NCBI GenBank assembly: GCA_945903265.1
Contig: CAMDNQ010000005.1
Location: 62,001 to 126,000, forward strand
From: Candidatus Sulfopaludibacter sp. SbA3
GTDB taxonomy: Bacteria > Acidobacteriota > Vicinamibacteria > Vicinamibacterales > UBA2999
Length of the DNA: 64,000 nt
Reading direction: 5' to 3'
A program made the translations under genes and the position numbers. Below, piece by piece: positions 3,260 to 20,352 of the stretch; within the stretch, counting starts at the first letter, position 1; every line of letters starts with the position of its first letter. Below the pieces are notes generated by a model. That model saw only the letters and a program-made list of their open reading frames with translations. It searched no databases and was not told the origin of the DNA.

Positions 3260-3275
3260 GTAACGCAGCCGTAAC
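3260..3275. promoter_or_regulatory. putative operator: two GTAAC units 11 bp apart
   Basis: GTAAC occurs at 3260-3264 and again at 3271-3275, an exact 11-bp pitch, about 40 bp upstream of the metalloprotease start. The same arrangement (GTTAC on the minus strand) recurs upstream of several other genes in the first 20 kb. PhoB/OmpR-family regulators bind direct repeats of this pitch; which protein binds here is inference. Confidence 0.45.
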
Positions 3276-3294
3276 GTGTTTGTCGAGACTATTT

Positions 3295-3312
3295 CGTCCG
3301 TGTTAACGGACG
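3295..3312. promoter_or_regulatory. perfect 7-bp inverted repeat in divergent region
   Basis: CGTCCGT, a GTTA spacer and ACGGACG form a perfect palindrome between the divergent metalloprotease gene and the small gene at 3359. It could be an operator for a dimeric repressor or a short RNA hairpin. No T-tract follows, so a terminator is unlikely. Confidence 0.35.
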
Positions 3313-3358
3313 TGACTCGTCTGTACGCAGGGGTACGTCGCTTGCGTGGACACGCTGC

Positions 3359-3634
3359 ATGGAAACGTCCCCTCCGCTCCCGTCAATGAACGTTACAGAT
3401 GTAACGAGAATCGCCCAGGAGGCTGTGAACGCGCAGTCGTCGAAGCTCCGCGTCATGGGCGTCACCATGGGAAACGGCGATGGCAACTACGCGGAGGTCA
3501 TCATTGACCTTGAGGATTGCGGCACGCAGCCCTGCCGTATGTCGGTGGGAATTTTCCGAAACGCGTCCGAGGATACGGTGCGAGGCGAGATCGTCAAACG
3601 CCTCGAGCGCCACGTCCGCGAGCACGGCGCATAG
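3359..3634 (+). CDS. hypothetical protein, 91 aa
   Basis: Small soluble protein with no family that I recognise. The sequence looks like a compact alpha/beta domain: an amphipathic start (DVTRIAQEAVNAQSSK), a hydrophobic strand with a two-cysteine segment (CGTQPCR, about residues 54-60), and a charged C-terminal helix (IVKRLERHVREHG). No signal peptide or membrane segment is seen. No clear ribosome site precedes the first ATG; a second ATG at 3386 would remove nine residues. A GTTAC-n4-GTAAC inverted repeat (3391-3404) lies just downstream of that second ATG. A hairpin follows the stop codon (3634-3669). Coding by frame and composition is likely; function is unknown. Confidence 0.55.
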   Translation: METSPPLPSMNVTDVTRIAQEAVNAQSSKLRVMGVTMGNGDGNYAEVIIDLEDCGTQPCRMSVGIFRNASEDTVRGEIVKRLERHVREHGA

Positions 3635-3669: not shown

Positions 3670-3686
3670 CGATGCCGGAAATGGCC

Positions 3687-3938: not shown

Positions 3939-4003
3939 CGTAGCTGGGGCGTGTGATCGGAGAATGAACGGCGGGCAACAACCGCGACACGTTCGGCGTC
4001 CTG

Positions 4004-5767
4004 TTAGCGCCGTAGCCCGGGGTCTGCGAGAAACGCGTCAATCGCCTCGGGCGCCATCGGTCTGGCCATCAGGTAGCCCTGTAGCCGGTCGCAGCCGTGC
4101 CCCTCGAGAAAGACCGCCTGCTCTTCCCGTTCGATGCCTTCCCCCGTGACGGTCAGCCCCAGCGAATGCGCCATCACGATGATCGCCTGTGCGATGACGC
4201 CGCCGTTACCCTGGTCGCCGATGCTGGCGACGAAGCTCTGGTCGATCTTGATCGCATCCACCGGCAGCCGCTGCAGCTGGCTGAGTGAGGAGTAGCCGGT
4301 CCCGAAATCGTCGACGGACAACCGGATCCCGAGCTGTTTGATGGCGTCCAGCACCGCGACCGACGACGCATCGGATCGCATGACGCTGCTTTCGGTGATT
4401 TCCAGTTCCAGCGCGTCGGGCGGGAATCCGGTCTCGGCCAGGTGGCGGCAGAGCATCGGCAGCAGCGCGCCATCGCGCATCTCGACACCCGAGACGTTGA
4501 TCGCGAGGCGGGCATGCGGTGCGGGGCCGCGCCGCCAGCCGAGCAGGCGACGCATCGCCTCGCGCATAACGACATCGGTGATGGCGCTGATGAGTCCCGC
4601 GTCCTCGGCGGCGCGAATCAGCTGGGGCGTCGGGCGAAACCCGTCAGATCCGCGCCACCGCACCAGCGCCTCGAACCCGTACAGCGCGCGTGTACCCGCG
4701 CACACCTGCGGCTGGTAGTGCACCTCGAGTTCACCGAAGTCGAGCGCCCGGCGTACCGTGCTGAACTCGAGCAGCGGGTCGGCTGCGGATCGCACCATCG
4801 ATGCTGAATAGCGCTGAGACGTGTTGCGGAACTGCTTCGCGTAGTACAGCGCGTCGTCAGCAGCCCGCGTGAGCGCGCCCCCGGTGCGTCCGTCGTGTGG
4901 GAACACCGCGATGCCGATGCTGCCCGAGAGATTGATGTCCTTCTTGTCAATGCGGTGGACCTGCCGGAGCGACTGAAGGAGCTTGTCGGCAATGACCTCG
5001 GCGTCCAGCGGCTCGGTGAGCTCGGTGAGAACCAGAGCGAATTCGTCGCCGCTCAGCCGCGCCACCGTGTCGTGCGCCCGCACGCCCTCACGCAGCCTCT
5101 CCGCGACTCCCTTCAGCATCTGATCACCGGCGGCGTGCCCCAGGCTGTCATTCACCGCCTTGAACCGATCGACGTCGACGAAGAGGACCGCGAGGATCCG
5201 GTGGTACCGCTCGGCGTGCGCAAGGGCCTGGCTGAGACGATCGCCGAACAGCTGACGGTTCGGCAGGCCGGTGAGGCCGTCGTGGTGCGCCAGGTGATAG
5301 AGGATGGTCTGGCGCCGCTCGGTGAGCCGGCGCATCAGGCTGTACCCCGTGCCGATGCCGAGATATCCGCCATCGCGCGTGACGATGTAACCGTCGAAGA
5401 TGTACCTGTTGCCCTCGTCAACGACGATTTCGCTGAGCTGATCGAGCGACATCCGTTCGTCGACGACCAGCGGCGCGGAATCCATCACGTCGGTGATCGC
5501 GCGGTGGGTCAACAGGTCGCGCCCGAAAGGGCGCGAGAGCAACTCGAAGAAGCGGAAACGATTGATGATCCCGACCGGCACGGAATTCACGTCCACGATC
5601 GCAATCGCGTACAGCGTCTGGTTGGCGGAAAACGCCTCGTACGCACGGAGCGTGGGCGCCGTCACCGGCAGCGGCTCGATGGAGCTCACCAGACCCGCGA
5701 GCGTCTCGCCGTGTTCAGCGGGCGGCTCGACCGCAGGCGCGGCGAGGGGACTCGGACGCCGGAGCAT
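4004..5767 (-). CDS. CBS-like/GGDEF/EAL protein (cyclic di-GMP metabolism)
   Basis: Bifunctional-type signalling protein of 587 residues, predicted soluble. Residues about 25-145 resemble a CBS-pair or related sensor region. The GGDEF domain (about 155-325) has SGDEF at 239-243, a variant often still active, and an RxxD inhibitory site (RAHD, 230-233) five residues before it. The EAL domain (about 330-580) keeps EAL at 366-368, the NVSG Asn, EITES, DDFGTGYSS and the catalytic Lys in IKIDQSF. So both diguanylate cyclase and phosphodiesterase activity are possible. Two GTTAC units 11 bp apart (5807-5822) lie just upstream, suggesting control by the same regulator as the TonB receptors. Confidence 0.93.
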   Translation of the reverse strand: MLRRPSPLAAPAVEPPAEHGETLAGLVSSIEPLPVTAPTLRAYEAFSANQTLYAIAIVDVNSVPVGIINRFRFFELLSRPFGRDLLTHRAITDVMDSAPLVVDERMSLDQLSEIVVDEGNRYIFDGYIVTRDGGYLGIGTGYSLMRRLTERRQTILYHLAHHDGLTGLPNRQLFGDRLSQALAHAERYHRILAVLFVDVDRFKAVNDSLGHAAGDQMLKGVAERLREGVRAHDTVARLSGDEFALVLTELTEPLDAEVIADKLLQSLRQVHRIDKKDINLSGSIGIAVFPHDGRTGGALTRAADDALYYAKQFRNTSQRYSASMVRSAADPLLEFSTVRRALDFGELEVHYQPQVCAGTRALYGFEALVRWRGSDGFRPTPQLIRAAEDAGLISAITDVVMREAMRRLLGWRRGPAPHARLAINVSGVEMRDGALLPMLCRHLAETGFPPDALELEITESSVMRSDASSVAVLDAIKQLGIRLSVDDFGTGYSSLSQLQRLPVDAIKIDQSFVASIGDQGNGGVIAQAIIVMAHSLGLTVTGEGIEREEQAVFLEGHGCDRLQGYLMARPMAPEAIDAFLADPGLRR

Positions 5768-5806
5768 CGGCCGTATTGTCCGCGGCCGGGGTAACGGTGC
5801 ATCGAC

Positions 5807-5822
5807 GTTACAGCATCGTTAC
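5807..5822. promoter_or_regulatory. putative operator: two GTTAC units 11 bp apart
   Basis: GTTAC at 5807-5811 and 5818-5822, with a further GTAAC at 5791-5795, in the 64-bp gap between the CHAD gene and the GGDEF/EAL gene. Its centre is about 48 bp upstream of the GGDEF/EAL start codon. Confidence 0.45.
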
Positions 5823-5831
5823 GGTGCGCCG

Positions 5832-6812
5832 TCAGTGAGACCCGAGAGTGCGAGGCGCTCTCGCACCCAGCAGCAGCCATCCCGCAGGAAGCGCCGCAAC
5901 CACGCCTGCCGCGAGGAGCGGCCGCGCGAAGAAACGGCGTGCCGCCTGCTGGGCTGCGAAGGACGCGCATACGCCACAGACCTCGCGGAGACGCTCGCGC
6001 CGGGCCAGGTACTCCATGTGCCGCTCGCCGATCTCCCCCTCCAGATCCTCCTTGAGCAGCCGCACCTGTCCCGCGTCCACGCCGCTTTCCGTCACCAGGC
6101 CGTCCGTGGTGTCGAGCAGCACCTGCGCGTCGTGAAGCTGCCCGAGCGACTCCTGACCGCGCTTGAGCTCCCCGAGGACATGAAGGTCTGACGACAGACC
6201 GCTCTGCTGCGCCAGCTCGACGCTGTAACGAAGCTTCTTGGCTGCGATACGCACGCGGTGCAGTCTGTTCGGAAAATAGACAGCGGACGCATGATCGATC
6301 GCCGCGCGCAGTTCCCCGGCGCGGTGGCCGATCCGATGGCGAAGGACGCGGCCCCACCCTCCCGCGTCGCGTCCGGAAACGCTCCACCCATGTGTCACGC
6401 GCGACAATCGAAGCTTCTCGGCGCTGTCGAGCGCGAGTCGATCCAGCGCCTTGACGAGTCTGCGGCGGGCCTTGCCGCGCTGGCGGTTGAGGACCAGCCG
6501 CGCGACGCCGATCGCGTGGAGCGCCGACGGCAGCCTGACCGCGCGCCGGGCAAGATCTTCCTCCATGACGTCCAGCTCCCGCACGCGCCCCAGCCTGCGG
6601 CCCGCGCGCTTGACGAGCTGTGTGATCCGATCGACGTCCCGTGGATGGGCTTTGAGGAACAGGGGCAGCGCTTCGCGAAGCCGTCGTGTTGCGACGCGCG
6701 CGTTATGCACGCCCTCGACGTCGGCGTCGCGCGCGGCGGGAAGGCTCGCCAGCAGGACATCGACTTGATGTTCGAAAAGGACACGGGGGGATGTGAGGGA
6801 TGCGTGCGCCAT
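5832..6812 (-). CDS. CHAD domain protein (polyphosphate-binding)
   Basis: CHAD domains are conserved histidine alpha-helical bundles that bind inorganic polyphosphate. Two family signatures are plain: VHNARVATRRLREALP near residue 40 and LHRVRIAAKKLRYSVE near residue 200, the basic helices that line the central pore. The protein is about 326 residues, usual for a stand-alone CHAD protein, and ends with a hydrophobic segment (LLAAGVVAALPAGWLLLG) that may anchor it to the membrane. I use the ATG at 6812; a TTG at 6830 would add six residues. A CYTH triphosphate-tunnel protein and two alkaline-phosphatase-family genes in the same 20 kb suggest a link to phosphate or polyphosphate metabolism. Confidence 0.9.
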   Translation of the reverse strand: MAHASLTSPRVLFEHQVDVLLASLPAARDADVEGVHNARVATRRLREALPLFLKAHPRDVDRITQLVKRAGRRLGRVRELDVMEEDLARRAVRLPSALHAIGVARLVLNRQRGKARRRLVKALDRLALDSAEKLRLSRVTHGWSVSGRDAGGWGRVLRHRIGHRAGELRAAIDHASAVYFPNRLHRVRIAAKKLRYSVELAQQSGLSSDLHVLGELKRGQESLGQLHDAQVLLDTTDGLVTESGVDAGQVRLLKEDLEGEIGERHMEYLARRERLREVCGVCASFAAQQAARRFFARPLLAAGVVAALPAGWLLLGARAPRTLGSH

Positions 6813-6922: not shown

Positions 6923-9900
6923 CTAGAACGCGACCTTCACGCCAAGCTGCAGCTGCCTCGGATCGTACGTCTGCGTGATCGATCCGAACGCCGCGGAGCT
7001 GCGATCGCCGTTCGGCGCGCGGAAGTTCGATCGATTGAGCAGGTTGAACATTTCCGCCCGCAGCTCCAGCGACGTCCGCATCAGCGTGACGCGCTTCCCC
7101 ACCATCAGGTCCATCTGCCAGAAGAACGGACCGCGGACGCTGTTGCGCGCCGCATTGCCGAACGGCTGGCTGGGATCGGTCGGCGCGACCACCGTTGCGG
7201 GATTGAACCAGCGCTGAATCGTGCGCTGATCCTCCGGCACGTATGGGTCGCCGTTCACGTTGGGCCGGTAGTTATTCGCGCCACGGAAATCCTGCTGGAT
7301 ACCCGACACCTGAAAGGCCGCGGCCGGCGAGTACCGGAACGTCACCGCTTCGCCCGCGTAGATCGTGTTGATGCCGGCCACCTGCCACCCGCCGAGCAGC
7401 GCGCCGTCGAACGGCAGCTCCCACACGAAGCTGGTGGTGCTGTTGTACGGCTGGTGATACGCCGAGAGCCCGTAGTCGGCGTCCATGTTGTAGAAGTCCT
7501 GCGGCGCGGGGAAATTGCCGTTCGGCCCTTCCAGCGATCCGGCGCCGTTGTCCTTGGTCTGCGACAGCGTCAGCGAGCTCAGAAGCGACAGCCCGCCCTG
7601 CATGCGCCAGTCGAACTTCGCCTGCAGCGCGTGATACCGCGACTTGCCGCCGTTGAACGAATAGGTAATGTCGGCGAACTCCGGGATCGGTCGCCGCGCC
7701 TGCAGAGGGATGGTGCCGGAAGCGTTGTTCGGCGTCGCCTGATTGAAGTTCGCAAACAGCAGCAGGTCGTCGGCCCGGTTGCCGACATACGCGAGGTCCA
7801 CCAGCATGTTGGCCGCGATCTCCCGCTGCACCGACATGTGCCAGCTCTGCACCTGGCTCGATCGGTAGTCCCTCGGCATGTAGGTGATGTTGGCCGCGAG
7901 CGGACTGAACCGCGACGGGTCGGTCAGGCCAGCCGGATACCCCTGCTCGGTCCGGCGGAACGTCGCGTCGAGGGGATTGCTCTGCACGACGACCGCGTTG
8001 ATGACCTGCGGACCGTTGATCGGCAGCACGTTGCCGCCGCCGGCGCGGTGGAAGTGCACGTAACTGACGCCGTAGCCGCCGCGCACGACGGTGCTCGGAT
8101 CCAGCGTATACGCGAAGCCAAGCCGGGGCCCGATGTTGTTCCGGTCGGGCGTCAGCGTCGAGCGGTCCTCAAGCGAACCGTCGCGCGCCATCACCATCTG
8201 CCGCGACTGCGGATCGAAGTTCGAGAGGATGTTGTCGCGCTCCACCCAGGGCGTCGCGTACTCGTAGCGCACGCCCAGGTTGAGCGTCAGCCGATCGTTC
8301 ACCCGCACATCGTCCTGGAGATAGAGGAAATGCATGTTCTGCCGGAGGTTGGCGACGAGGATGTTGCTCAGCGCGAAGCGACTCCGGAGCCCGAACATGA
8401 AGTCCGCGAGGTTGTAGACGTTGTTCGCGGCGGCGCCCACCGGGCGCGTGAACTGGCCGGCGTACTCGTCGCGGCCGTAGAGCGGATTGACGTCCTGCAC
8501 TTCGGTCTGGACGTGCTGGTACTCGTATCCCGCCTTCAGCGACTGGCGGCCGCGCAGCCATGTGTAGTTCGCCTTCGGGTTGTACACCGTGGGGTACTGC
8601 CACTGCGGATTGGTGGCCTGCCGTCCGAGATTGGACAACCCGGTTATGAGCTGTGACGGGAGGCCTCCCGCCACGCGCGGGTCGGTCGGCAGCCCCGCGA
8701 TGCCGTACCCGTCGAGCGCTGATGTGGAACCGAGCGCCAGCGGGTTTTTCCCCGCCCGCGTCGCGGACCATCCGAACCGCACCTCGAGGAGCGAGGTCGT
8801 CGTCGGGATGTACGTCGCCCCGAACGCCATCTGCTTGTTGGTGACGTAGGTTTCGCCATTCCCGTCGCCCCCCGAGGGCAGCGGCACCGGCGGCTGATCC
8901 TGGATGTCGACGTCGCGATACCCATAGCGGGCAAACGCGGTGAACCCGTCGCGGACGTTGAGGTCGACCTTGCCGCCGAACTTGTCGGTGACGTTCCTGA
9001 ACTCCTGGAGCAGCGAATAATTCGCCCCCGCCGTGCCGGTGGGCGCGGGGAGCTCGCTGAGCACCTTGCGGGCAAACGCGGTCATCGGCACCGGTGTGCC
9101 GGGCTCGTATGTTTCACCCGTGAGCGGATTCCGCACGGCCACCGCGAAGACGCCCTGGCGCTGCGCGATGTTGGGAATCGTGGAGAACGCGGCGGCGCCG
9201 CGCGTCTGCCTGAACCCTTCGTAATCACTGAAGAAGAACGCCCGGTTGCGCAACAGCGGCCCGCCGATGACGCCGCCGAACTGGTCGCGCTCGAGCGGCG
9301 GCTTCTGCCCCGACGGCGGCTTGAAGTACCCGGTGGCGTTGAGCGCGGTATCGCGCATGAACTCCCAGGCGCTGCCGCGGAGGCGATTCGTGCCGCTGGC
9401 GTACGCGACGTTGATGGTGGCACCCGCGGAGCGCCCGTACTCCGCGCTCATGTTGTTGGTGACGACCTTGAACTCGGCGACCGCGTCAGGTGGCGGCTGC
9501 ATGACCTGGTTGGAGAATCCCTGATTGCTCGTACCGTAGGCGTTGTTGTCGACGCCGTCGATCAGAAAGTTGTTGAACGTGCTGCGGAGGCCGTTCACGT
9601 TGAACGAACCTTCGCGCGGCGTGCCGCCGCCGGTGTTGAGCGCGGACAACCGCACGCCGGTCGTCAGCAGCGCCAGGCTCGAGTACTCGCGGCCGTTCAG
9701 GGGAAGCGCCCGCGTCTGCTCCCCCGTGATGAGCTGTCCACGCTGGCTCGTGTCGGTCTCGAGGAGCGACGTCGTCGCGGTGACCTGTACCTGCTCGGTG
9801 AGGCCGCCGACCGGCAGCGACAGGTTCACGCGGAGGCGATCGCCGACGCTGAGCCGGATGTTGTCGGCTACGGTGACGGCAAACCCCGGCTTTTCGGCGG

Positions 9901-10153
9901 TGATGACGTAGGTGCCGATGCGAAGGGTGACGAATTCGTAGGTGCCCGTGGCGTCGGAGGAGCGTGTCTGCGTGACGCCGGTGTCGACGTTGGTCAGGCC
10001 AACCATGGCGCCGTCAATGACGCCGCCCGATGCATCCGTGATCGAGCCGAGAATCGAGCCGGTTTCGAATTGTGCCGCGGCCGGCGCGACGGCCGCGGCG
10101 AGAAGGAGGATCGTGAACGTAAGGATTCTGAGCATGGCTGAGACGGTACTCAC
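6923..10153 (-). CDS. Oar-like TonB-dependent receptor
   Basis: Complete outer-membrane receptor, 1076 residues. Signal peptide ends near AAVAPAAAQ; a carboxypeptidase-regulatory-like domain follows (about 30-115), then a plug region with LPLNGREYSSLALL and FLIDGVDNNAYG, then the barrel, ending in QLGVKVAF with the terminal aromatic residue expected for BAM insertion. Start is either GTG at 10153 (GGAG upstream) or ATG at 10135 (no clear site); both leave the signal peptide intact. GTnAC-type units at 11-bp pitch precede it (10159-10196). It lies 48 nt downstream of another receptor gene. The transported substrate is unknown. Confidence 0.93.
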   Translation of the reverse strand: MSTVSAMLRILTFTILLLAAAVAPAAAQFETGSILGSITDASGGVIDGAMVGLTNVDTGVTQTRSSDATGTYEFVTLRIGTYVITAEKPGFAVTVADNIRLSVGDRLRVNLSLPVGGLTEQVQVTATTSLLETDTSQRGQLITGEQTRALPLNGREYSSLALLTTGVRLSALNTGGGTPREGSFNVNGLRSTFNNFLIDGVDNNAYGTSNQGFSNQVMQPPPDAVAEFKVVTNNMSAEYGRSAGATINVAYASGTNRLRGSAWEFMRDTALNATGYFKPPSGQKPPLERDQFGGVIGGPLLRNRAFFFSDYEGFRQTRGAAAFSTIPNIAQRQGVFAVAVRNPLTGETYEPGTPVPMTAFARKVLSELPAPTGTAGANYSLLQEFRNVTDKFGGKVDLNVRDGFTAFARYGYRDVDIQDQPPVPLPSGGDGNGETYVTNKQMAFGATYIPTTTSLLEVRFGWSATRAGKNPLALGSTSALDGYGIAGLPTDPRVAGGLPSQLITGLSNLGRQATNPQWQYPTVYNPKANYTWLRGRQSLKAGYEYQHVQTEVQDVNPLYGRDEYAGQFTRPVGAAANNVYNLADFMFGLRSRFALSNILVANLRQNMHFLYLQDDVRVNDRLTLNLGVRYEYATPWVERDNILSNFDPQSRQMVMARDGSLEDRSTLTPDRNNIGPRLGFAYTLDPSTVVRGGYGVSYVHFHRAGGGNVLPINGPQVINAVVVQSNPLDATFRRTEQGYPAGLTDPSRFSPLAANITYMPRDYRSSQVQSWHMSVQREIAANMLVDLAYVGNRADDLLLFANFNQATPNNASGTIPLQARRPIPEFADITYSFNGGKSRYHALQAKFDWRMQGGLSLLSSLTLSQTKDNGAGSLEGPNGNFPAPQDFYNMDADYGLSAYHQPYNSTTSFVWELPFDGALLGGWQVAGINTIYAGEAVTFRYSPAAAFQVSGIQQDFRGANNYRPNVNGDPYVPEDQRTIQRWFNPATVVAPTDPSQPFGNAARNSVRGPFFWQMDLMVGKRVTLMRTSLELRAEMFNLLNRSNFRAPNGDRSSAAFGSITQTYDPRQLQLGVKVAF

Positions 10154-10158
10154 CGCGC

Positions 10159-10196
10159 GTCACTCCGCCATGACACAGGCGTGAACTTTACGTAAC
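10159..10196. promoter_or_regulatory. putative operator: four degenerate 11-bp-phased units
   Basis: Read on the minus strand, units GTTAC, TTCAC, GTCAT and GTGAC start every 11 bp between 10196 and 10159, directly upstream of the receptor gene. The third unit, with its flanking base, reads TGTCAT as in classical Pho boxes. The units are degenerate, so confidence is moderate. Confidence 0.4.
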
Positions 10197-10201
10197 CATC
10201 C

Positions 10202-13036
10202 TCAGAACAGGACCTTGACGCCGAGCTGCACCTGTCGCGGGCCTCCGAAGCGGGCGGTCGACGGCGCGAACAGGGCCTGTCCGGCGGTGGCGACAGCACT
10301 CGCTGGGGTCCCGAACACGCTGATGCCATCGTTCCCGAAGTTCCTGTTGCTGGCTCTCGTCGCGTTGAGCACATCCACGAGGATCTGCAGCTGGCGGGAC
10401 TCCGCGTAGCGGAACGCCTTCATCAGGCGCACATCGAGATTGAAGAAGGCCGGCTGCCGAAAGGTATTTCGTCCCGCAATCCGGCCGTTGATGATGGCCT
10501 GATCGTTGTCGTCGTTGGCGTCGCGCTGCTGATCGCTGCCGATGACCGCCGTGTAGGGCATGCCGGAGCGCGCAATGACGATGCCTGACGCCGTGATTCC
10601 GGCCGGCAGCACCAAGACCGCGCTGGCGTTGGCCGTGTGCGGCACGTCCTGCTTGGATGGCGCCCATTCCGCGGCCAGGTCGAACGGATTCAGCGTGGGC
10701 TGGCGGCTGAAGTTACGCTCGTTCGAGTCATCGTCCCAGTTGCGGGCGTACGTGTAGTTCACCTGCCAGTGGACGGCGCTGCGACGACCCTCTGTCGTCA
10801 GCACAAGTGCGTCGTACTGCGACTTCGCCGTAGACTCGTTGACGTCCAGCTGGGCGATCGCGGGGTTCGGACGCGTCGCGGGGAATACCGGCAGCCCCGT
10901 GTCGGCAATCGTCGGGGGAAACAGGTTCCGGTCCAGCCGGCGCTGCAGGTGAATGGTGCGGTTGCGCATGTACCCGATCGACATCCGCATCGCGTCGGTC
11001 ACACGGTGCTCGAGGGTGACGGACGCCGCCGTCGTGTCAGGGTTCTGGAAGTCGGCCGAGAAGCCGAAGATCCGCTGGACCGGCACCCGTACGCCGGCGG
11101 GAAGGGACGGCAGCGAGTTCGGGAACACCAGCTGGGTCAGGATTGTCGGGTCCGTACGGCTGTCGACGGCCACGGTCGTGATCCCGTTGTCGGTGAACAC
11201 CCGCTGGAACAGATTCGCCGGCGTGCGGGCGTTGTAGAGACCTCCGTTGAGGCGCACGATGGTGCGGCCGCCGCCGGTCGTGTCCCAGGTCAGGCCCAGC
11301 CTGGGTTGCCACATGGCCAGGTCATTCGGAATCCGGGACGTGTCCAGAAAGGCGGGGTTCGGCCGCGGGGGCTGTGGATTCCACTGGCCCTCCCAGCGCA
11401 GCCCCGCCGCGAGCGTCAGGCGGTCGCCCAGGCGGACGGCGTCCTGGACGAAGACCGCAAGCTCCCGCTGTGTCGCTTCGTAGAACAGGTCGTCGGGATT
11501 GAAACCGGGCAGCGTCTGCCGGTAGCGGGAGATGATTCGGGCGTTGTAGTTCGCCAGCGACGTGAAATCGTAGCGGCCGATGATGTTGCTCTCACGCTGC
11601 TGGCGGGCGGGCGTCATGTTGGCGTCGACGCCGACGCGGATCTCGTGGCGGCCCGCAACCGCGGTCAGACTGTCATTGACCTGGAAGCGGCGGGCTTCGA
11701 AGAACCGGGGCCGGCCGGCGTCGCCGCCGATGGTCCCGAAGCCGGTGATGACGATCTGCGGCAGGGTCGTGTTGGGCTCTTCGGTCCGGTCGTCGGTGGC
11801 GTACTGCACCCGCGCTTCGTTGAGCAACGTCGAGGACAGGACGGTGAGCACCCCGGCCTTGGCCGCATGGCTTTGTGTTCGCCGCGTGAAGTTGGCGGTC
11901 GCCGCGGCGTCGATCTGTGGCGAATCGAAGTTGAAGTTCTTCCCCGTGAGGCGGCTGTAGGTGTACTGGAGATCGAGCCGGCTACGGTCAGAGACGCGCC
12001 AGTCCGATCTCACAAAGAGGGCCGAGGGGTTGTTGGTCCCGAACTGCTCGCCCTCGAGCGCCTTCAGTTCCGCCGGCACGACGACGCCGGGCGCCTGGTC
12101 CTGGAACTTGACGACAAACGGAACCCGCAGGAAGTTCTGCTCGAACGAGCCGAAGAAGAACGCCTTGTCCCTGGCCAGCGGCCCGCCGACCGCCCCGCCG
12201 AACTGGTTCTGCTGGTTGTTCAGCTTGCGATCGAATGCGTTGGCGGACGTCAGCTGCCTGTTCCGGTTCAGGTACAACGCCTCGCCCTGCAGCGCGTTGG
12301 TGCCCGATTTGGTCACCACGTTGACAAAGCCCGCACTCGTGCGCCCGGTCTCCGCGCCGGCGCCGCTCCGCACGACCTGAAACTCCCGCACCGCGGACTG
12401 TGGAAAGAAGAACGAGGACTCGTTGCCGCCGCGCTGATTGCCCTGGAGCGGGTCGTTGAAGTCGGCACCATCAATGGACACGTTCGAGTTAATGGAGCGC
12501 TGTCCGCCAATCACGAGGCCGAAGCGGTCCGATTCCTGGACGACCGACGGCGTCAACTGGACAAACTCGGTGAAGTTGCGGCCGCGCACGGGCAGGTCGG
12601 CAATCGCGCCGAGGTTGATGCTGGATGCCGCCGCCGCGCTCCTCGTATCGACCGACGCCGTTGCCTCGACCGTCACCGATTCGGAGATGCCGGCAATCGT
12701 GAGCTGCAGCGCGACGGTCTCCGTCTGGCCGACCATGACGGTCACGCCGCTCCGGCGGGTGGGCGCAAAGCCCGCCAGCATGGCCTCCACGACATAGCTG
12801 CCCGCCGGCAATGCCGGCGCCACGAATCGACCCCGCACGTCTGTCAGCACGGTACGCACGTATCCGATGCCGAGATCCCGGATGTCGACCGTCGCGCCTG
12901 GGACCGGTTTCTCATCGGCATCCACCACCACGCCTTCGAGAGCACCGTGGCCGGATCCGGATTGGGCGGCCCAGGACGCGCACGGAACGGCCAGCAGGAA
13001 TGACACGATGAGCACGACATTAAAGATGAGGTTCAT
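10202..13036 (-). CDS. Oar-like TonB-dependent receptor
   Basis: Complete receptor of 944 residues from the ATG at 13036; an upstream in-frame start would put a charged leader before the signal peptide, so it is not preferred. The order is signal peptide (to about residue 24, SWAAQ), carboxypeptidase-regulatory-like domain (EGVVVDADEKPVPGATVDIRDL), plug-like region with LPVRGRNFTEFVQLTP and SIDGADFNDP, and a barrel ending QLGVKVLF. Compared with its neighbour it is about 130 residues shorter, mostly in the barrel. Phased GTnAC units lie at 13059-13096. The receptors are diverged from each other rather than recent duplicates. Confidence 0.93.
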   Translation of the reverse strand: MNLIFNVVLIVSFLLAVPCASWAAQSGSGHGALEGVVVDADEKPVPGATVDIRDLGIGYVRTVLTDVRGRFVAPALPAGSYVVEAMLAGFAPTRRSGVTVMVGQTETVALQLTIAGISESVTVEATASVDTRSAAAASSINLGAIADLPVRGRNFTEFVQLTPSVVQESDRFGLVIGGQRSINSNVSIDGADFNDPLQGNQRGGNESSFFFPQSAVREFQVVRSGAGAETGRTSAGFVNVVTKSGTNALQGEALYLNRNRQLTSANAFDRKLNNQQNQFGGAVGGPLARDKAFFFGSFEQNFLRVPFVVKFQDQAPGVVVPAELKALEGEQFGTNNPSALFVRSDWRVSDRSRLDLQYTYSRLTGKNFNFDSPQIDAAATANFTRRTQSHAAKAGVLTVLSSTLLNEARVQYATDDRTEEPNTTLPQIVITGFGTIGGDAGRPRFFEARRFQVNDSLTAVAGRHEIRVGVDANMTPARQQRESNIIGRYDFTSLANYNARIISRYRQTLPGFNPDDLFYEATQRELAVFVQDAVRLGDRLTLAAGLRWEGQWNPQPPRPNPAFLDTSRIPNDLAMWQPRLGLTWDTTGGGRTIVRLNGGLYNARTPANLFQRVFTDNGITTVAVDSRTDPTILTQLVFPNSLPSLPAGVRVPVQRIFGFSADFQNPDTTAASVTLEHRVTDAMRMSIGYMRNRTIHLQRRLDRNLFPPTIADTGLPVFPATRPNPAIAQLDVNESTAKSQYDALVLTTEGRRSAVHWQVNYTYARNWDDDSNERNFSRQPTLNPFDLAAEWAPSKQDVPHTANASAVLVLPAGITASGIVIARSGMPYTAVIGSDQQRDANDDNDQAIINGRIAGRNTFRQPAFFNLDVRLMKAFRYAESRQLQILVDVLNATRASNRNFGNDGISVFGTPASAVATAGQALFAPSTARFGGPRQVQLGVKVLF

Positions 13037-13058
13037 CGCTCCAATTTGCCTCTGGCGC

Positions 13059-13096
13059 GTGACAAGCGCGCGTCCTTTGTGTCGCAACGGTGTAAC
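13059..13096. promoter_or_regulatory. putative operator: degenerate 11-bp-phased units
   Basis: On the minus strand GTTAC (13096-13092), GCGAC (13085-13081) and GTCAC (13063-13059) fall on one 11-bp register upstream of the receptor start; the unit between the last two is poorly conserved. Weaker than the sites at 3260, 5807 and 19044. Confidence 0.35.
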
Positions 13097-13584: not shown

Positions 13585-14049
13585 ATGCCTGAAGTCGAAC
13601 GAAAGTTCCGCCTGCCCGCCGTCCCGGCGGAGATCCTCGCGTTCGGTGGCGTTCCGGTTATTCAGGGATATGTGGTGTCCGGTCCCGGTGAATTGCGCGT
13701 GCGGAAGGAAGGCTCACTCACGTACATGACGGTGAAGGGGGACGGCACGCTCGCGCGCGACGAATGGGAGGCGCGGATTCCCGCCTGGGTGTTCGAGATG
13801 CTGTGGACGCACACGGAGGGCCGACGGATCGAAAAGACGCGATACGTCGTGCCATACGAGGGTCACGTCCTTCAGATCGATGTTTATGAAAGAGCCCTCC
13901 TGGGTCTCGTCACGCTCGAATGTGAGTTTGGCGGCGAAGATGCCGCCCGCGGCTTCACACTCCCCTCGTGGGCGGGTCCTTCCGTCGATGTCACCGCCGA
14001 TCCCGCATACAAGAACAAGACCTTGGCGTCGGAGGGACTGCCGGACTAG
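13585..14049 (+). CDS. CYTH domain protein (triphosphate tunnel metalloenzyme)
   Basis: CYTH proteins fold into an eight-stranded tunnel that binds triphosphate-bearing substrates and divalent metal. The hallmark N-terminal motif appears as EVERKF at residues 3-8 (ExExK-type), followed by alternating charged strands: ELRVRKEG, YMTVKGDG, EWEARIP, LQIDVYE, LVTLECEF. Length (154) is normal. Activity could be inorganic triphosphatase or adenylate-cyclase-like; the family cannot be subdivided by eye. The nearby CHAD gene is notable because CYTH and CHAD domains are often fused or neighbours in polyphosphate-related proteins. Confidence 0.88.
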   Translation: MPEVERKFRLPAVPAEILAFGGVPVIQGYVVSGPGELRVRKEGSLTYMTVKGDGTLARDEWEARIPAWVFEMLWTHTEGRRIEKTRYVVPYEGHVLQIDVYERALLGLVTLECEFGGEDAARGFTLPSWAGPSVDVTADPAYKNKTLASEGLPD

Positions 14050-14058: not shown

Positions 14059-15627
14059 TTACTGCATCGCCGCGCCCCGTCTGCCGTTCTCGATCACGAC
14101 GGATGCGTCCACACGGGTCGGCTGCCCCGGCACCGTCACTCGATCCAGGACCATGAAGTCGCCGCGCAATGTCCCGGGGGTTGCCGTGCAGGCGATGTAG
14201 CCCCGGCGGGCGCTGTGGTACTTGACGTGGGGGTTGTCTGCGCGGACACGGTCCCAGCCTGGCGCGACGTCGGTCCCGTCGCCGTTCGAGCTGATAGAGG
14301 TGGTCGTCAGCTCCACGCCGACCGTCTCGGACTCGGGCCGCGCAAAATCCATCTTCAGGTCGGCGGCAAAGTGCTGGTGCACGTCGCCCGACAGGATGAT
14401 GGGATTCGGCGTGCGCGTGTCGACCAGACGGCGGTACAGCCGTCGCCGGGCGGCGACATAGCCGTCCCATTTGTCCATGTTGAAGCGCGCGGCCGGATCA
14501 AGGGCGCCCAGGTCGCGCGCGAAGGTGTAGACCTGCTGCCCGAGGAGCGTCCATCGGCCGGCCGGGCGCTCCAGGTTCGCGAACAGCCACCGCTCCTGGT
14601 CGGTACCGAGCATCGTGCGGCGGCTGTCGAGCGCCTCCTCACATTGGGACTTCCATCCCTTGCCGCACGCCTGGCTGGACCGCCACTGGCGCGTGTCGCA
14701 GACGTGGAGATCGACCAGCTGACCAAAGGCCAACCGCCGGTGCAGTTGCATGCCGGCTCCCCCGGGGAGCGCGGGGCGGCGCAGCGGCATCGCCTCGTAG
14801 TACGCCTGGTACCCGGCGGCGCGGCGCAGTGCAAAGACTTCCGGCGGCACGTCCGCGCCGCCACGGCCGCCGGCGTAGTCATTCACGACTTCGTGGTCGT
14901 CCCACGTAACGATGAAGGGAGCCGACGCGTGGGCGGCCTGCAGGTCGGGGTCGAGTTTGTACTGCGCGTACCGAGCCCGGTAGTCCGCCACCGAATACAG
15001 CTCGGCGCCGTGGTGCGTCCGGACGCCGCCTGCCGAGGCGCCCGATTCGTAGATGTAATCGCCGGTATGCAGGATCCAGTCGAAGCCCTCCTCAGCGATG
15101 CGGCGGTACCCCGTGAAGAATCCGTGCTCGAAGTGATTGCAGCCGCAGACCGCGAAGCGCACGCGCTCGGCCATCGCATTCGCGGCCGGGGCCGTCCGGG
15201 TTCTGCCCGCCGCGCTGGTCTCGCTGCCCGCGTGGAATCGATACCAGTAGTCCCGGCCGGGGAGCAATCCCTCGACGTCGACATGCACGCTGTGCCCCAG
15301 CTCGGGGCGCGCGATCTCGGTGCCGGAGCGGACGATCGAGCGAAAGGAGGGATCGGTGCCCACTTCCCAGGCGACTTCGACCGGCACCATGGGCATGCCC
15401 CCGCCCGCAAGCGGCTCCGGCGCGAGGCGCGTCCAGAGTACGACGCCGGTGGGCAGCGGATCGCCGGACGCGATGCCTAGCGTAAAGGGGTTCGAGCGGA
15501 AGGCGAGCCTGCTGACCGGTGCCTGCGCGCGCACCGGTGCCGCAATGGCCGCGGCGCCGAGCGCCCAGACGATGTTCAGCAGCTCGCGTCGGGAGAACTG
15601 CTCACACGCGCGGTCGTAGTACTGCAT
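14059..15627 (-). CDS. phoD: PhoD-family alkaline phosphatase, Tat-exported
   Basis: Secreted calcium/iron-type phosphodiesterase or alkaline phosphatase of the PhoD family, 522 residues. It opens with a twin-arginine signal (SRRELL near residue 12, then a hydrophobic stretch to about 35). The family N-terminal domain contains FTLGIASGDPLPTGVVLWTRL; the metallophosphatase core shows HTGDYIYES, TWDDHEVVNDY, and ILSGDVHQH, which supply metal ligands. The gene lies 19 nt downstream of the TonB receptor at 15647 and probably shares its promoter, which carries three 11-bp-phased GTnAC units. That fits phosphate-starvation control, as is known for phoD in other bacteria. Confidence 0.92.
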   Translation of the reverse strand: MQYYDRACEQFSRRELLNIVWALGAAAIAAPVRAQAPVSRLAFRSNPFTLGIASGDPLPTGVVLWTRLAPEPLAGGGMPMVPVEVAWEVGTDPSFRSIVRSGTEIARPELGHSVHVDVEGLLPGRDYWYRFHAGSETSAAGRTRTAPAANAMAERVRFAVCGCNHFEHGFFTGYRRIAEEGFDWILHTGDYIYESGASAGGVRTHHGAELYSVADYRARYAQYKLDPDLQAAHASAPFIVTWDDHEVVNDYAGGRGGADVPPEVFALRRAAGYQAYYEAMPLRRPALPGGAGMQLHRRLAFGQLVDLHVCDTRQWRSSQACGKGWKSQCEEALDSRRTMLGTDQERWLFANLERPAGRWTLLGQQVYTFARDLGALDPAARFNMDKWDGYVAARRRLYRRLVDTRTPNPIILSGDVHQHFAADLKMDFARPESETVGVELTTTSISSNGDGTDVAPGWDRVRADNPHVKYHSARRGYIACTATPGTLRGDFMVLDRVTVPGQPTRVDASVVIENGRRGAAMQ

Positions 15628-15646
15628 CCCCGGACCCGCACCCGTG

Positions 15647-18600
15647 TTAGAAGACGAAGCGCGCGCCGAACTGCCACTGACGCGGATCGGCCTGGCTCAG
15701 GAGCTGGCCAAAGGTGGGATCGTTGAGAATTCGACCGACGAGCGTGTAGTTGCGCCGGTTCAGCAGATTGAACGCCTCGGCTCGAAGCTCGAGCCGCCGT
15801 CCGGAACCGAACCTCAATGCCCGCGACAACGAGAGATCCAGGTTGGCGAAGCCCGGGCCGACCAGCGAGTTCCGTCCGATCGTGCCGAACGCGCCGGCGG
15901 CCGGCGCGGCGAACGCCGCGGGATCCAGGTACCGGCCGTTATTCCACTCGCTCTTCGGCAGGTACGGATCGACGCCGGCGACGGCATTGGGACGCACGAG
16001 AATGCCGCCGGTCCCGCCGCCGATGCCTGCGGTATCCCCTCGGAGATTCACGGTAAACGGAAAGCCGCTCTGCATCGAATAGATGCCCGCGACCTGCCAG
16101 TCCCGCAGGAACGGCACGAGCGCGCCGCTGCGGAGGTAGGCGCGATCCGGGCCGAACGGCAGCGCCCACGTCGCGCTGGTCACCCATCGGTGCCGCGCAT
16201 CGTGATACGCGGGTCCCCACTCAGCGTCCAGGCTATGCGAATCCTGCGGAGGGGAGTTCTCCGACCCGTTGACGCCGCCGGCGTTCCGGAACTGCGGCGC
16301 ATTGCTGCGCGCTTCGGAGAGCGTGTACGCGCTCAGCAGCGACATGCCTCCCGCGAGCCGCTTTTCGAGCCGCACCGACACGGCGTCGTACTCCGACCTG
16401 GCCGAGTGCGCGAGGTAGTTGATCTGTCCGACGGGCACCCGATCGCCCTGAACGACAACGTGGTCGGGAAAGGTCGTGCCCGGCGCAAACTGCATCGCCC
16501 CGAACGGCCGGCGGGGATCGACCGCGCCGGCGCCCGGCTGCGCGTTGTTCGGTTGCACGTTCTGCTCGAGATGGCGGCCGCGGGTGCCGACATAGGTCCC
16601 TTCGACAACCCAGCCGAGCCCCATGTCACGCTGGATGCCGAGACTCCATTGCGTCGACTCGCTCGTCTCCTGAAACAGATCGATCCCGGCCTGCTGGACC
16701 TGCACCGGACCCAGTATGGCGGGCCCGAAGATGTCGTAGCCGGGGCCGCGCGCGGGGACAAAGTTGTTGAAGGTGATCGCCTGGGCGATGTTCGCCGGCA
16801 GGCCGGCCGCCAGACGGAAGAGCGGATTGGCGTCGGTCGCCGCGTAGTAGATCCCGGCGCCGCCGCGAACGACGGTCCGGTCCGACGCGCGCCAGGTCAA
16901 TCCGGCGCGCGGCGCGATGTTGTCCTTGTCGGTGTAGGCACAGCCCTTCGGGTAGCCGCTCTGGCCGCAGACGAAGACGATCGGCGCGTAGAACGCCGTG
17001 CGCCGCTCCGCAAAGATCTCAGCAGGCGTCGGCACGTTGCGGTAGTCGATGCTCGACATCATGCCGTTCGCGTCGTGCATCGGCGGCGACAGTTCGTAGC
17101 GGACACCCAGATTCAGGGTCATGCGGTCGCTCATGCGCCACTCGTCCTGCGCGTAGACGGACAAGTACGACTGGCGGCCGGCAATCGTACTGGGGCCGAC
17201 CGACCGATTGCCGGCCTGGGGCAAGCCAAGGAGAAAGCTGGCGAGCGCGTGGCCGGAGCCGTCGTTGCCCGCCGTCCGGCTCGTGTAGCCCGCGCTGAAC
17301 TGGTACGTGCCCAGCGAGCTGGGCGCCTCGGTGCGGTTGTATTCGATCCAGAGGAACTCACCGCCGACTTTGAACGACTGCCTGCCGACCTGCCACACCA
17401 TGTTGTCGTAGACCTGGTACGTCCGGTTGTCCACGTCGACGATTCCGCCGCCGGTCGTCCCGGTGAAGGCGCCCGCCCCGCCGATCGTCGGGAAGCCTGC
17501 CACGATGAACCGCGGGATCGCCTGCTGCCTCCCGCCCAGGTCGAAGGAGAGCTCGGGAAGTCCGGCGCGCAGCGTCATCCGGCTCGCGCCTCCGCGCAGT
17601 TCGTTCACCATTTGCGGGCCGAGCACCGTCGTCCAGCCCACGACCGCGTTCTGGGGACGCGCGTCACCAATGTTGTCGCGGCCCGGAACCGGCTCCGGGA
17701 CAACGGCGTTCTCGTCGGCCAGCGAGAGCCGTCCGAACAGATTGCTGCCGGCGCCCAGGTTCGCATCGATGCGCAGCGAGTAGTTGAAGATGTCCTGCGC
17801 GAGAACCCCCTCGGTGTTCACATAGCCCCTGGTGCCCGTGTTCGGCAGCGGCAGCGCATCGAGTGCGGCCCTGGCGAGCGGGTCAATTCGCCCGGCGGGC
17901 AGGCGATTCCCGGGAAACGGCGTGCGGCTCGGTGCCAGCGTCAACGGATCGAAGATGCCGCCGCCAGGCGACTGACTGAAGTCCCCCTCGCGCTCGAGCG
18001 CGGTTGGCACGGTGACGGTGGTCAGGGCCGCGGCGCCTTCGCGGCGGCGCAGCTGCTCGAAGGCACCGAAGAAGAACACGCGTCCCCCAACCAGCGGTCC
18101 CCCAAGCGTGCCACCGAAGTTGTCGCGCTGAAACGTTGGCAGATCCCCCACCAGGTTGAACGGCCGCGAATCAAAGCGCTTGTTGCGATGGAACTCGAAC
18201 GCTGAGCCATGAAAGACATTGCTTCCGGACTTCGTGACGACGTTGACCTGTGCGCCCGCCCGGCCGAATTCGGCGGTGAACTGCGCCGTCTGCACCTGAA
18301 ACTCCGCGATCGCGTCGATGCTGGGCGAATAGTTCAACGAGTTGTAGTCGGGATCCGTGTTGATGGCGCCGTCGAGGAGGAACGCGGTGTTGTTGGTGCG
18401 GCCGCCGCCGATGCTGACACCACCAGCCTGGTTCTGGCGGACCTGGTTCTGCTGGACGGCCCGGCCACCCGGATTGGCGCCCGGCACGAGGAGCGCGAGC
18501 TGAATGAACTGGCGGCCGTTCAACGGCATGCTGTTGACCTGCTCCTCGGTGATCACCGTACCGAGCGCCGGCGTATGCACCGTGAGGGGCTCCACGGTTG

Positions 18601-18970
18601 CGACCACATCGACGGCTTCGGCGACGTCGCCCACCGCGAGACGGACGCGAAGCTCACCCGGCTGCGCCACACGCAGCAGAATTTCCGGGTTGCGAAACTG
18701 TTTGAAACCGTCGAGGACGACGGTCACCTCGTACCGGCCCGGTTGAAGCAGCGTGAGGACGGCGCGCCCGTCCGAATCCGTCACCTGATCGCGGGAGGCC
18801 CCGCGGGACAGATCGCGCAGGGTGACGGTCGCCCCCGGGATCACCGCGCTGGTGGTGTCCGTGACGGACACTGTGAGTGACGTCGTATCCGACTGCCCCG
18901 AGGCCGGCCGGGCCATGAGTCCCAGCACGACTACTACTCCACACACGTACAGGCAGACCGCACTCTTCAT
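15647..18970 (-). CDS. Oar-like TonB-dependent receptor, upstream of phoD
   Basis: Complete receptor of 1107 residues. The ATG at 18970 sits 5 nt after GGAGG, clearly better than the upstream GTG. Signal peptide ends near MARPASGQ; the carboxypeptidase-regulatory-like domain follows (about 28-110), then MPLNGRQFIQLALLVPG and FLLDGAINTDPDYNS in the plug-like region, then the barrel ending WQFGARFVF. It is followed within 20 nt by the PhoD gene, so a role in taking up a phosphorylated or phosphate-containing compound for cleavage by PhoD is a reasonable inference, not shown by sequence. Confidence 0.93.
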   Translation of the reverse strand: MKSAVCLYVCGVVVVLGLMARPASGQSDTTSLTVSVTDTTSAVIPGATVTLRDLSRGASRDQVTDSDGRAVLTLLQPGRYEVTVVLDGFKQFRNPEILLRVAQPGELRVRLAVGDVAEAVDVVATVEPLTVHTPALGTVITEEQVNSMPLNGRQFIQLALLVPGANPGGRAVQQNQVRQNQAGGVSIGGGRTNNTAFLLDGAINTDPDYNSLNYSPSIDAIAEFQVQTAQFTAEFGRAGAQVNVVTKSGSNVFHGSAFEFHRNKRFDSRPFNLVGDLPTFQRDNFGGTLGGPLVGGRVFFFGAFEQLRRREGAAALTTVTVPTALEREGDFSQSPGGGIFDPLTLAPSRTPFPGNRLPAGRIDPLARAALDALPLPNTGTRGYVNTEGVLAQDIFNYSLRIDANLGAGSNLFGRLSLADENAVVPEPVPGRDNIGDARPQNAVVGWTTVLGPQMVNELRGGASRMTLRAGLPELSFDLGGRQQAIPRFIVAGFPTIGGAGAFTGTTGGGIVDVDNRTYQVYDNMVWQVGRQSFKVGGEFLWIEYNRTEAPSSLGTYQFSAGYTSRTAGNDGSGHALASFLLGLPQAGNRSVGPSTIAGRQSYLSVYAQDEWRMSDRMTLNLGVRYELSPPMHDANGMMSSIDYRNVPTPAEIFAERRTAFYAPIVFVCGQSGYPKGCAYTDKDNIAPRAGLTWRASDRTVVRGGAGIYYAATDANPLFRLAAGLPANIAQAITFNNFVPARGPGYDIFGPAILGPVQVQQAGIDLFQETSESTQWSLGIQRDMGLGWVVEGTYVGTRGRHLEQNVQPNNAQPGAGAVDPRRPFGAMQFAPGTTFPDHVVVQGDRVPVGQINYLAHSARSEYDAVSVRLEKRLAGGMSLLSAYTLSEARSNAPQFRNAGGVNGSENSPPQDSHSLDAEWGPAYHDARHRWVTSATWALPFGPDRAYLRSGALVPFLRDWQVAGIYSMQSGFPFTVNLRGDTAGIGGGTGGILVRPNAVAGVDPYLPKSEWNNGRYLDPAAFAAPAAGAFGTIGRNSLVGPGFANLDLSLSRALRFGSGRRLELRAEAFNLLNRRNYTLVGRILNDPTFGQLLSQADPRQWQFGARFVF

Positions 18971-18993
18971 TCCGTCCTCCGCGCGAATGCGCA

Positions 18994-20352
18994 CTATGGC
19001 TTGTGATCGGAATGCGACGGTATCAGCCGTGCGTCAAGCACGCGTAACGCAGGCGTCAACCGTGTGTAACTCTTCGTGCGTTGCCGAGACGCGCGCGGAC
19101 TGTGAAGCCGCCCCGTGCGCGACCATCGGTGCTCCGATGGCCTGGCCTCGGTACCGAGGCGGTGCAGTTCGTCCTGCAGCGCAAAGTACCGGGGAATGAC
19201 CCGTTCCCACGCGAAGTCGAGCGCCGTGGCGCGCGCGGCCGCGACGCGGATCGCGTTGCCGTCCGCGGCCTCACGCACGGCCGCCGCGAATGCCGCACCG
19301 GTCGGTTCGGCGAGCCAGGCATTCGATGTTGTCGCGTACTCGAGCACGCCGCCGGACGCGGGGAGCACCACCGGAACGCCCGACGCCATGGCCTCGAGCG
19401 GACCGATGCCGAACGGTTCGCGCGGATTCGGATGGACGAAGACGTCGCAGCTCGCAAGGTACGCCGCGAGCGTGCCCCTGTCGAGCGCGCCACAGGCCCA
19501 CAGTCTCCCGTCCAGCGGCCCGCGGGCCTGCTCGCGCAACCACGGCGTGAGTGGACCGTCGCCGACGACGACCATCCGGAAGTCACGCCCGCCGTCCCCA
19601 CAAAGCGCCCGGAGGGTCTCCACGAGGAGGCCCACATTCTTTTCGGGGGATACCCGGCCCGCATAGAGCAGCAGCACGCTGTCGGCGGTTCCGCCGCAAC
19701 GGCCCAGCAGCGACGCCCGAATATCCGCATTGCCGTGCCGCGCACCGAAGTCGTCCGAGTGCACCCCCATCGGGCAGCGCCGGATGAACCCGTCCGGTCG
19801 ATCGTGGAGCGCCTCACGAAGCTCCCGCTCCGTGTACTCGGAGATGGCGATGTGCGCGTCGAACGGCGGCCCGTAGATGTGCCGGAGGTACCAGCGCGTG
19901 AACGCCCGCCCCGCCATCGAGCGAGACACGTAGGCCGCCATGTTGTCGTCGAATCGCTCGCAGCTCAGTGCGACCAGCGTGGGGCGCCTGACGCGCCGGT
20001 GCCATCGCCTGCGCAGCATCGCGGCCAGGTACGGCAGCGTGTATTTGTCGCAGACCTCGACGACATCCGGCTGCTCGCGCTGGAGCACGTCCACGATGGC
20101 CGATCCGGTGCCTGGCAGATACCGGTGCGGGAGGAGCATCCGGTACCGACGGTCGAACAGCGGCGCCCGGGGCGCGGCGATGACATGAATGCGCGCGTAG
20201 GGACCGCGATCGACGACCTCCGTCTCCGCACCCGGCACGATCAGCACGACGCGGCGGCGCGCCCGCTGCGCGCCGTCGAGGAGCGCGTGATAGAACGTGC
20301 GGATACCGCCCGACGCAGGATGGTAGGCGTTCGTGATGTGGACCGACGTCAT
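18994..20352 (-). CDS. glycosyltransferase family 4
   Basis: GT-B fold glycosyltransferase, 452 residues from the ATG at 20352, which overlaps the previous stop as ATGA. The N-terminal acceptor domain begins VHITNAYHPASGGIRTFYH; the donor half has LLYAGRVSPEKNVGLLVETL and the sugar-nucleotide loop REPFGIGPLEAMASGVPVVLP (E-x7-E pattern). The last 45 or so residues (from about SEHRWSRTGR) do not look like the family and run over the phased GTnAC sites of the next gene, so the natural stop may have been lost. Last gene of a coupled six-gene operon; the acceptor is probably a cell-envelope lipid or polysaccharide. Confidence 0.9.
   Translation of the reverse strand: MTSVHITNAYHPASGGIRTFYHALLDGAQRARRRVVLIVPGAETEVVDRGPYARIHVIAAPRAPLFDRRYRMLLPHRYLPGTGSAIVDVLQREQPDVVEVCDKYTLPYLAAMLRRRWHRRVRRPTLVALSCERFDDNMAAYVSRSMAGRAFTRWYLRHIYGPPFDAHIAISEYTERELREALHDRPDGFIRRCPMGVHSDDFGARHGNADIRASLLGRCGGTADSVLLLYAGRVSPEKNVGLLVETLRALCGDGGRDFRMVVVGDGPLTPWLREQARGPLDGRLWACGALDRGTLAAYLASCDVFVHPNPREPFGIGPLEAMASGVPVVLPASGGVLEYATTSNAWLAEPTGAAFAAAVREAADGNAIRVAAARATALDFAWERVIPRYFALQDELHRLGTEARPSEHRWSRTGRLHSPRASRQRTKSYTRLTPALRVLDARLIPSHSDHKP
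19044..19070. promoter_or_regulatory. putative operator: three GTnAC units at 11-bp pitch
   Basis: GTAAC at 19044, GTCAA at 19055 and GTAAC at 19066 start exactly 11 bp apart, 74-100 bp upstream of the TonB receptor start at 18970. This is the clearest of the phased sites. It lies inside the 3' end of the upstream glycosyltransferase frame. The architecture is that of Pho-box-like sites; binding is not shown. Confidence 0.5.

Follow-up and report, generated by a model that had tools for sequence, protein, structure and literature searches.

The window analysed here, a 64-kb stretch of Candidatus Sulfopaludibacter sp. SbA3 (C5:62001-126000 of a 3.52-Mb genome in 45 contigs), carries genes for TonB receptors (TB0 to TB3), phosphatases and signalling proteins (Table 1). 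The original prediction had described this neighbourhood as phosphate-linked on account of PhoD, CHAD and CYTH genes; all three were matched by Pfam, and so was a PhoX alkaline phosphatase. Upstream of several of these genes lie arrays of direct repeats with the unit nGTnAC and a pitch of 11 bp, which, judged from their sequence, are very probably PHO boxes of a phosphorylated PhoB-family regulator. The gene for PhoD follows that for receptor TB3 after 19 bp, and the two likely form one operon (receptor-phoD). The receptor genes TB3, TB2 and TB1 likely start at 18970, 13036 and 10135 rather than at the starts of the longer open reading frames (ORFs), and the true start of PhoX is probably inside its ORF.

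Phased repeats in the window and in the genome

Five sites with GTTAC- or GTAAC-like units had been named originally, and each is present where it had been placed. A unit matrix was trained solely on the promoters of DUF47-pit operons from other genomes; with rows of four units spaced 11 bp apart being scored, it gave exactly five window loci of at least 16 bits (3248, 5785, 10158, 13058 and 19032), and these are the same five (sites A, B, D, E and C, respectively); in Markov-simulated windows (n = 150) the mean was 0.05 such loci and the maximum 1. The top-scoring array, at 19032, lies in front of the receptor-phoD operon, the position that had been proposed for the best site. The two sites that had been called weaker (10159-10196 and 13059-13096) are so, yet they are in register. 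The words GTTAC and GTAAC turned out to be only part of the signal, the true unit being broader (nGTnAC, which grades into kTTAACA at the pst promoter; an array comprises about four units). The spacing is as had been described: GTAAC at 3260/3271 and GTTAC at 5807/5818 are exactly 11 bp apart, and at 19044/19066 a GTCAAC stands between two GTAAC words at a distance of 22 bp. Apart from the first two, the 64 kb contain no GT(A/T)AC pair at lag 11, and GTTACn6GTTAC occurs three times in the 3.52 Mb, twice inside the window.

All sites had been assigned to positions shortly before minus-strand start codons; the setting of two of them needs correction. Site A occupies a divergent gap, between the minus-strand gene at 2565-3221 and a small plus-strand ORF at 3359-3634 (91 amino acids, no Pfam match); one more pst-like unit, GTTAACACGG, belongs to it (at about 3298-3310). 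Site C is not purely intergenic, since it shares sequence with the final ~25 codons of the ORF at 18994-20352; the tail of this glycosyltransferase ORF past its domain (18994-19140) has a non-coding look. At site E, receptor TB2 is divergent from an iron-permease-like gene. The sixth, weaker site, before receptor TB0, resembles TTACAACCTCCTTACA, which precedes receptors of other genera.

Genome-wide scans refer to a sample of 2.14 of the 3.52 Mb (61%) with 1881 genes, called with a simple codon model (approximate starts, 93% coding). In this sample, arrays of at least 16 bits numbered 10 at 11 bp and 0-4 at other pitches, and seven of the ten were found within C5:50.8-81 kb; intergenic arrays of at least 14 bits numbered 21 at 11-bp pitch vs 0-5 at pitches of 8-10 and 12-15. 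When 5-mers were allowed up to one free position, GTNAC showed the strongest excess at lag 11 in intergenic DNA (18 pairs counted on both strands, i.e., 9 distinct ones, one of them in 16S rRNA, vs ~1.7 expected), and at other lags stronger words, of other kinds, were seen. A promoter frequency no higher than that in coding sequence had been named as a refutation; we found the lag-11 peak of GTNAC in intergenic DNA and none in the coding DNA of the same sample. Strong short-period repeats unrelated to the arrays also occur in intergenic DNA (ATCCC at lags 14 and 21, CGAAG at lag 9, CGAAC at lag 12).

The exact word GTTAC-n6-GTTAC was dropped as a motif: its enrichment across 59 genomes of the order was only modest (~94 occurrences vs 59 for the reversed control), so that a broader unit was needed. 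TTACAn6TTACA occurred ~117 times vs ~26 for its reversed control in the same genomes, a count to which a desaturase promoter (see below) contributes. When a 33-bp matrix built from the relatives' DUF47-pit promoters was scanned over the genome sample, rank 1 went to the promoter of a PhoB-like regulator (C5:51158), while site B came fourth (17.2 bits) and site A eighth (16.3 bits). Its intergenic matches of at least 14 bits numbered 12, vs 1 for the reversed matrix; with all positions counted it did no better than the reversed control, its excess being confined to intergenic DNA.

Table 1. Repeat sites and genes of the window, in window coordinates
Feature	Position	Strand	Description
Site A	3248-3310	.	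TGTAACGCAGC/CGTAACGTG + reverse-strand GTTAACACGG; 19.0 bits (four-unit scan)
Site B	5785-5834	-	CGTAACGATGC/TGTAACGTCG array ~25 bp before the GGDEF-EAL gene; 17.5 bits (four-unit scan)
Site C	19018-19072	-	four units AGTTACACACG/GTTGACGCCTG/CGTTACGCGTG/CTTGACGCACG, then -10-like GATACCGT; predicted promoter of the receptor-phoD operon; 23.3 bits (four-unit scan)
Site D	10144-10198	-	GGTTACGTAAA/GTTCACGCCTG/TGTCATGGCGG/AGTGACGCGCG + -10-like GTACCGT; predicted promoter of receptor TB1; 17.9 bits (four-unit scan)
Site E	13058-13096	-	degenerate AGTTAC/TGCGAC/-/TGTCAC, upstream of receptor TB2; 16.5 bits
Sixth, weaker site	2459-2481	-	CTTCACCACCTCCTTACACCC, before receptor TB0 (start 2404)
Weak candidate array	24513-24551	+	between glycosyltransferase and PhoX genes; 14.9 bits
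Receptor TB0	1-2404	-	extends beyond the window's low end
Gene without Pfam match	2565-3221	-	between site A and receptor TB0
CBS-GGDEF-EAL protein	4004-5767	-	Pfam
CHAD-domain protein	5832-6812	-	Pfam
Receptor TB1	6923-10135	-	Pfam (OMP_b-brl_4, CarboxypepD_reg, Plug)
Receptor TB2	10202-13036	-	Pfam
CYTH-domain protein	13585-14049	+	Pfam
PhoD phosphatase	14059-15627	-	Pfam PhoD, 345 bits
Receptor TB3	15647-18970	-	Pfam
PhoX alkaline phosphatase	24591-26132	+	Pfam PhoX, 197.9 bits

Promoters of pst, pit and receptor genes

The genome has a pstSCAB-phoU operon with GTTAACACGGAATTAACACGG before pstS, and this promoter reads TTAACAn5TTAACA. The closest pst relatives, going by name, are Acidobacteria/Vicinamibacteria metagenome genomes. 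In 21 other genomes, nearly all of them with Acidobacteria or Vicinamibacteria in their titles, the pst promoters have in common a four-unit array, cgtTaACAcGG/AATTaACAcg/GAAAC/GCGAAAt, with a GATAGCGT-like element after it. The pst promoters scored on average 13.75 bits at 11 bp vs 6.1-7.5 at other pitches, and those of the relatives contain both GTTACA and TTAACA units. From the 21 promoters we built a second matrix, 55 bp long, the top four matches of which in the genome sample were the pst promoter itself (60.4 bits), the PhoB-like regulator (24.1 bits), a protein of 389 amino acids (21.0 bits) and site D (12.2 bits, close to the maximum of 12.7 bits reached by the reversed matrix). The match at the 389-amino-acid protein lies 9 bp before the gene, and the protein, identified only afterwards, matches phosphate-selective porin O/P (Porin_O_P). 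The match at site D is in register and 8 bp from the receptor start. Sites C and D and the pst promoters have a -10-like element at a common offset (GATACCGT and GTACCGT where pst has GATAGCGT); at C and D there is no -35 consensus.

Exact TTACA/GTTAC repeats at this pitch were found in many related genomes ~20-100 bp from the starts of DUF47-pit operons, and also before pstS-pstC and pstB-phoU (neighbours assigned by Pfam). In several genera the DUF47-pit promoter reads TGTAACn5TGTAACn5TGTGACATACT, its array abutting the presumed -10 element and the start codon; DUF47-pit is absent from the genome of SbA3 itself. Six related receptors of other genomes have, before their starts, repeats of the TTTTACAACcTCCTTACA type spaced at 11 bp. 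The enrichment near pst, pho and TonB genes that had been suggested as a check was thus recovered in the genome sample and the relatives, with 11-bp arrays at pst, pit, pstB-phoU and related receptors. The receptor-phoD pair was also considered as a conserved synteny, which was rejected, as it is not conserved in the relatives examined. In two relatives (loci L076 and L079, near position 1480) a second array, TTTTTACAGGATYCTTACAAC, lies between the 3' end of a receptor gene and a gene labelled PadR-like by eye.

A further word that recurs in the relatives, TTACAGAAGTATTACA, was set aside, as it precedes a desaturase-kinase-regulator operon and probably belongs to another system. In SbA3 this operon (C2:256969-259517) encodes a fatty-acid desaturase, a histidine kinase and an OmpR-type regulator, with a TTACAG direct repeat in its promoter; the repeat (TTACAGAAGTATTACAG in many relatives) is conserved in ~15 Vicinamibacterales genomes (loci L226, L231, L233, L235 and L240). 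The operon is probably a separate two-component system.

These comparisons bear on two other explanations of the arrays. The receptors are paralogues, and their promoters might have been copied from one ancestor, with the GTnAC words being incidental; this is barely credible in view of the simulations and pitch controls and of the conservation of the arrays in other genera, before unrelated genes. Another OmpR-family regulator, MtrA-like and serving receptors or the envelope, might be responsible, with the phosphate genes as bystanders, given that similar words are bound by several regulators of this family and that, within the window, arrays adjoin TonB receptors more often than any other class of gene. 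We consider it improbable: arrays of the same family occur at pst and DUF47-pit in many genomes and at the phosphate porin, and in the main receptor family only three of the 28 members sampled carry an array of at least 14 bits, so that a signal of receptors as such was rejected (25 lack a strong array).

Candidate regulators and the phosphate island on C5

Eight OmpR-type DNA-binding domains are encoded in the genome. The regulator at C5:43273-43959 has PhoB as its best model (230.9 bits) and is followed by a PAS-HisKA kinase, the best models of which are PnpS (346.8 bits) and PhoR (302 bits). This PhoB/PhoR-like pair (C5:43.3-45.2 kb) shares its contig with two PhoX genes and with an orphan PhoB-like regulator (C5:51327-52025; 219.6 bits to PhoB, best match in the PDB RegX3). 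The orphan adjoins one PhoX gene (304.5 bits), and its own promoter has the strongest array of the sample (24.6 bits), whereas the other six regulator promoters tested have none. The regulator of the window arrays is probably, as far as the sequences indicate, either the pair or the orphan.

An upstream array of at least 16 bits is present at 12 of the 1881 sampled genes, and 10 of the 12 lie in C5:47.9-81 kb: a gene for a 70-amino-acid protein, the orphan regulator, receptors, the GGDEF-EAL gene and the genes around sites A and E. This island also holds the PhoX, PhoD, CHAD and CYTH proteins, and the second PhoX is just beyond it. The ~70-amino-acid protein (C5:50857-51069) belongs to a family without a Pfam match (..DWHRVERA..) that recurrently follows a PHO-box-like array (also at loci L218, L234 and L237) and once stands directly before DUF47-pit; it may be a small protein under phosphate control.

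The DNA-binding domain of the regulator at C5:43273-43959 is closest, among solved structures, to 8hig, 8hml and 8hih, which we take to be GlnR, an actinobacterial member of the OmpR family; the recognition helix is nearly identical, and the helices of both C5 regulators resemble those of GlnR and RegX3. GlnR sites read GTnAC-n6-GTnAC, as in Streptomyces venezuelae, or gTnAc-n6-GaAAc (PMC10704036); the former has the word and pitch of sites A and B. The similar helix may therefore explain how a regulator of the phosphate type could read the GTnAC word, and it also made it worth testing whether a nitrogen regulator of the GlnR type might use the arrays instead. The exact pattern GTNACn6GTNAC was absent from the 300 bp upstream of both ammonium transporters and of the glutamine synthetase-like gene, the regulator is paired with a PhoR/PnpS-like PAS kinase, and the array neighbours (pst, phosphate porin, PhoX, PhoD and pit) are phosphate genes where the targets of GlnR are nitrogen genes; a nitrogen regulator is accordingly very improbable.

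The PHO-box reading of the original prediction, in which direct repeats of this pitch are bound by PhoB or another OmpR-family regulator, is thus supported by the matrices trained on pst and pit, the pitch controls, the relatives and the co-location with a PhoB-like regulator, PhoX and PhoD. Several observations weigh against it. Site D is not significant by the pst matrix alone, given the score of the reversed matrix, although the combination of evidence is; site C is in the predicted register by the same matrix but weak (4.3 bits, rank 31), and site E is degenerate. The -10 element of sites C and D was not found at sites A, B and E. The exopolyphosphatase and CHAD genes beside pst have no array, any array at the PhoX gene of the window is weak, and an array at the second phoD of the genome was not demonstrated. 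The NCBIfam scores of the PhoB/PhoR-like pair, that for PnpS included, are below the equivalog cut-offs (296 bits for PhoB, 334 for PhoR). Finally, the unit of the pst promoter, TTAACA, differs from the GTnAC of the window.

Because of this last difference, two regulators may be involved, which would be a variant of the PHO-box reading: a PhoR-partnered PhoB would act on the TTAACA box at pst, and the orphan on the GTnAC arrays found in the island, in its own promoter and at the window receptors. The array at the orphan's promoter and the clustering of arrays around it fit such a division. On the other side, the box types overlap, as the pst matrix also finds the orphan promoter, the porin and site D, and GTTACA and TTAACA units occur together in the relatives' pst promoters. 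A division of labour between two regulators is therefore possible, if on balance unlikely.

Predicted mechanism and comparison with known systems

If the arrays are PHO boxes, the phosphorylated regulator would bind the 11-bp units head-to-tail on one face of the helix. At sites C and D, four units followed by a -10-like element at the pst offset suggest activation without a -35: under phosphate starvation the regulator would replace the -35 contact and recruit sigma, and outer-membrane receptors, PhoD and perhaps PhoX would be switched on. Site B has the orientation of the pit promoters, opposite to that of C and D, and like them it crowds the start codon, which suggests repression, so that the GGDEF-EAL enzyme may be repressed. 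The arrays, their pitch, the in-register match to pst, the co-location and the conservation are observed; the binding, the response to phosphate, the direction of control and the ligand of the receptors are inferred. The genes that carry arrays are of the expected type (pst, the receptor-phoD operon, the regulator beside PhoX and Porin_O_P, with pit and pstB-phoU in relatives).

The PHO box of Escherichia coli consists of two 11-nt direct repeat units, the most conserved motif of which is CTGTCAT. The 11-bp head-to-tail units are common to both systems. At sites C and D a -10-like element follows ~27 bp from where the penultimate unit begins, without a -35, a distance like that in E. coli. By contrast, these two sites have four units, the unit is nGTnAC/kTTAACA and arrays occur in both orientations. 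CTGTCAT itself is not matched by the window units, only site D having TGTCAT. The PhoP box of Bacillus subtilis has TTAACA-like repeats at 11-bp pitch, as does the pst promoter here (TTAACAn5TTAACA), although the phylum is another one and the last two units are GAAAC/GCGAAA-like in this class of Acidobacteriota. The Streptomyces PHO box (PhoP, GTTCACC) has its counterpart in a GTTCAC unit of site D, and mycobacterial SenX3-RegX3 in the best PDB match of the orphan; in both, the consensus and the gene set differ. PhoB-type effector domains bind head-to-tail on 11-nt direct repeats and contact sigma, and the consensus of the PHO box is species-dependent, CTGTCAT being that of E. coli (PMC4415409); the mismatch is thus no bar to membership in the wider PHO-box family. 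In Sinorhizobium meliloti, orfA-pit is repressed in phosphate starvation, with the box just before the start (PMC3131613), a parallel to the relatives' pit promoters and, by orientation, to site B, although SbA3 has no DUF47-pit. In Pseudomonas aeruginosa, PhoB boxes occur at a signalling system resembling TonB receptors (PMC4971064).

Pho regulons are already known in many phyla, with a variable consensus; what is found here would be a box of its own with a four-unit architecture. No published account of such a box or regulon in Acidobacteriota came to light (subscription journals were outside the search). A more specific proposal, which we offer tentatively and think rather doubtful, is that in Vicinamibacteria the main local output of the Pho regulon would be Oar-like TonB receptors and a GGDEF-EAL enzyme, that the orientation of the four-unit array would set activation or repression, and that control of the island would have passed from the PhoR-partnered PhoB to an orphan PhoB paralogue; in that case the receptors would take up some phosphorus source. 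Acidobacteriota abound in soils that are often short of phosphate. With the box defined at pst and pit and scanned for in genomes, the phosphate regulon of uncultured members may become readable from sequence, and the Oar-like TonB receptors, which are numerous and the substrate of which is mostly unassigned, would gain a first testable function, the uptake of phosphorus compounds.

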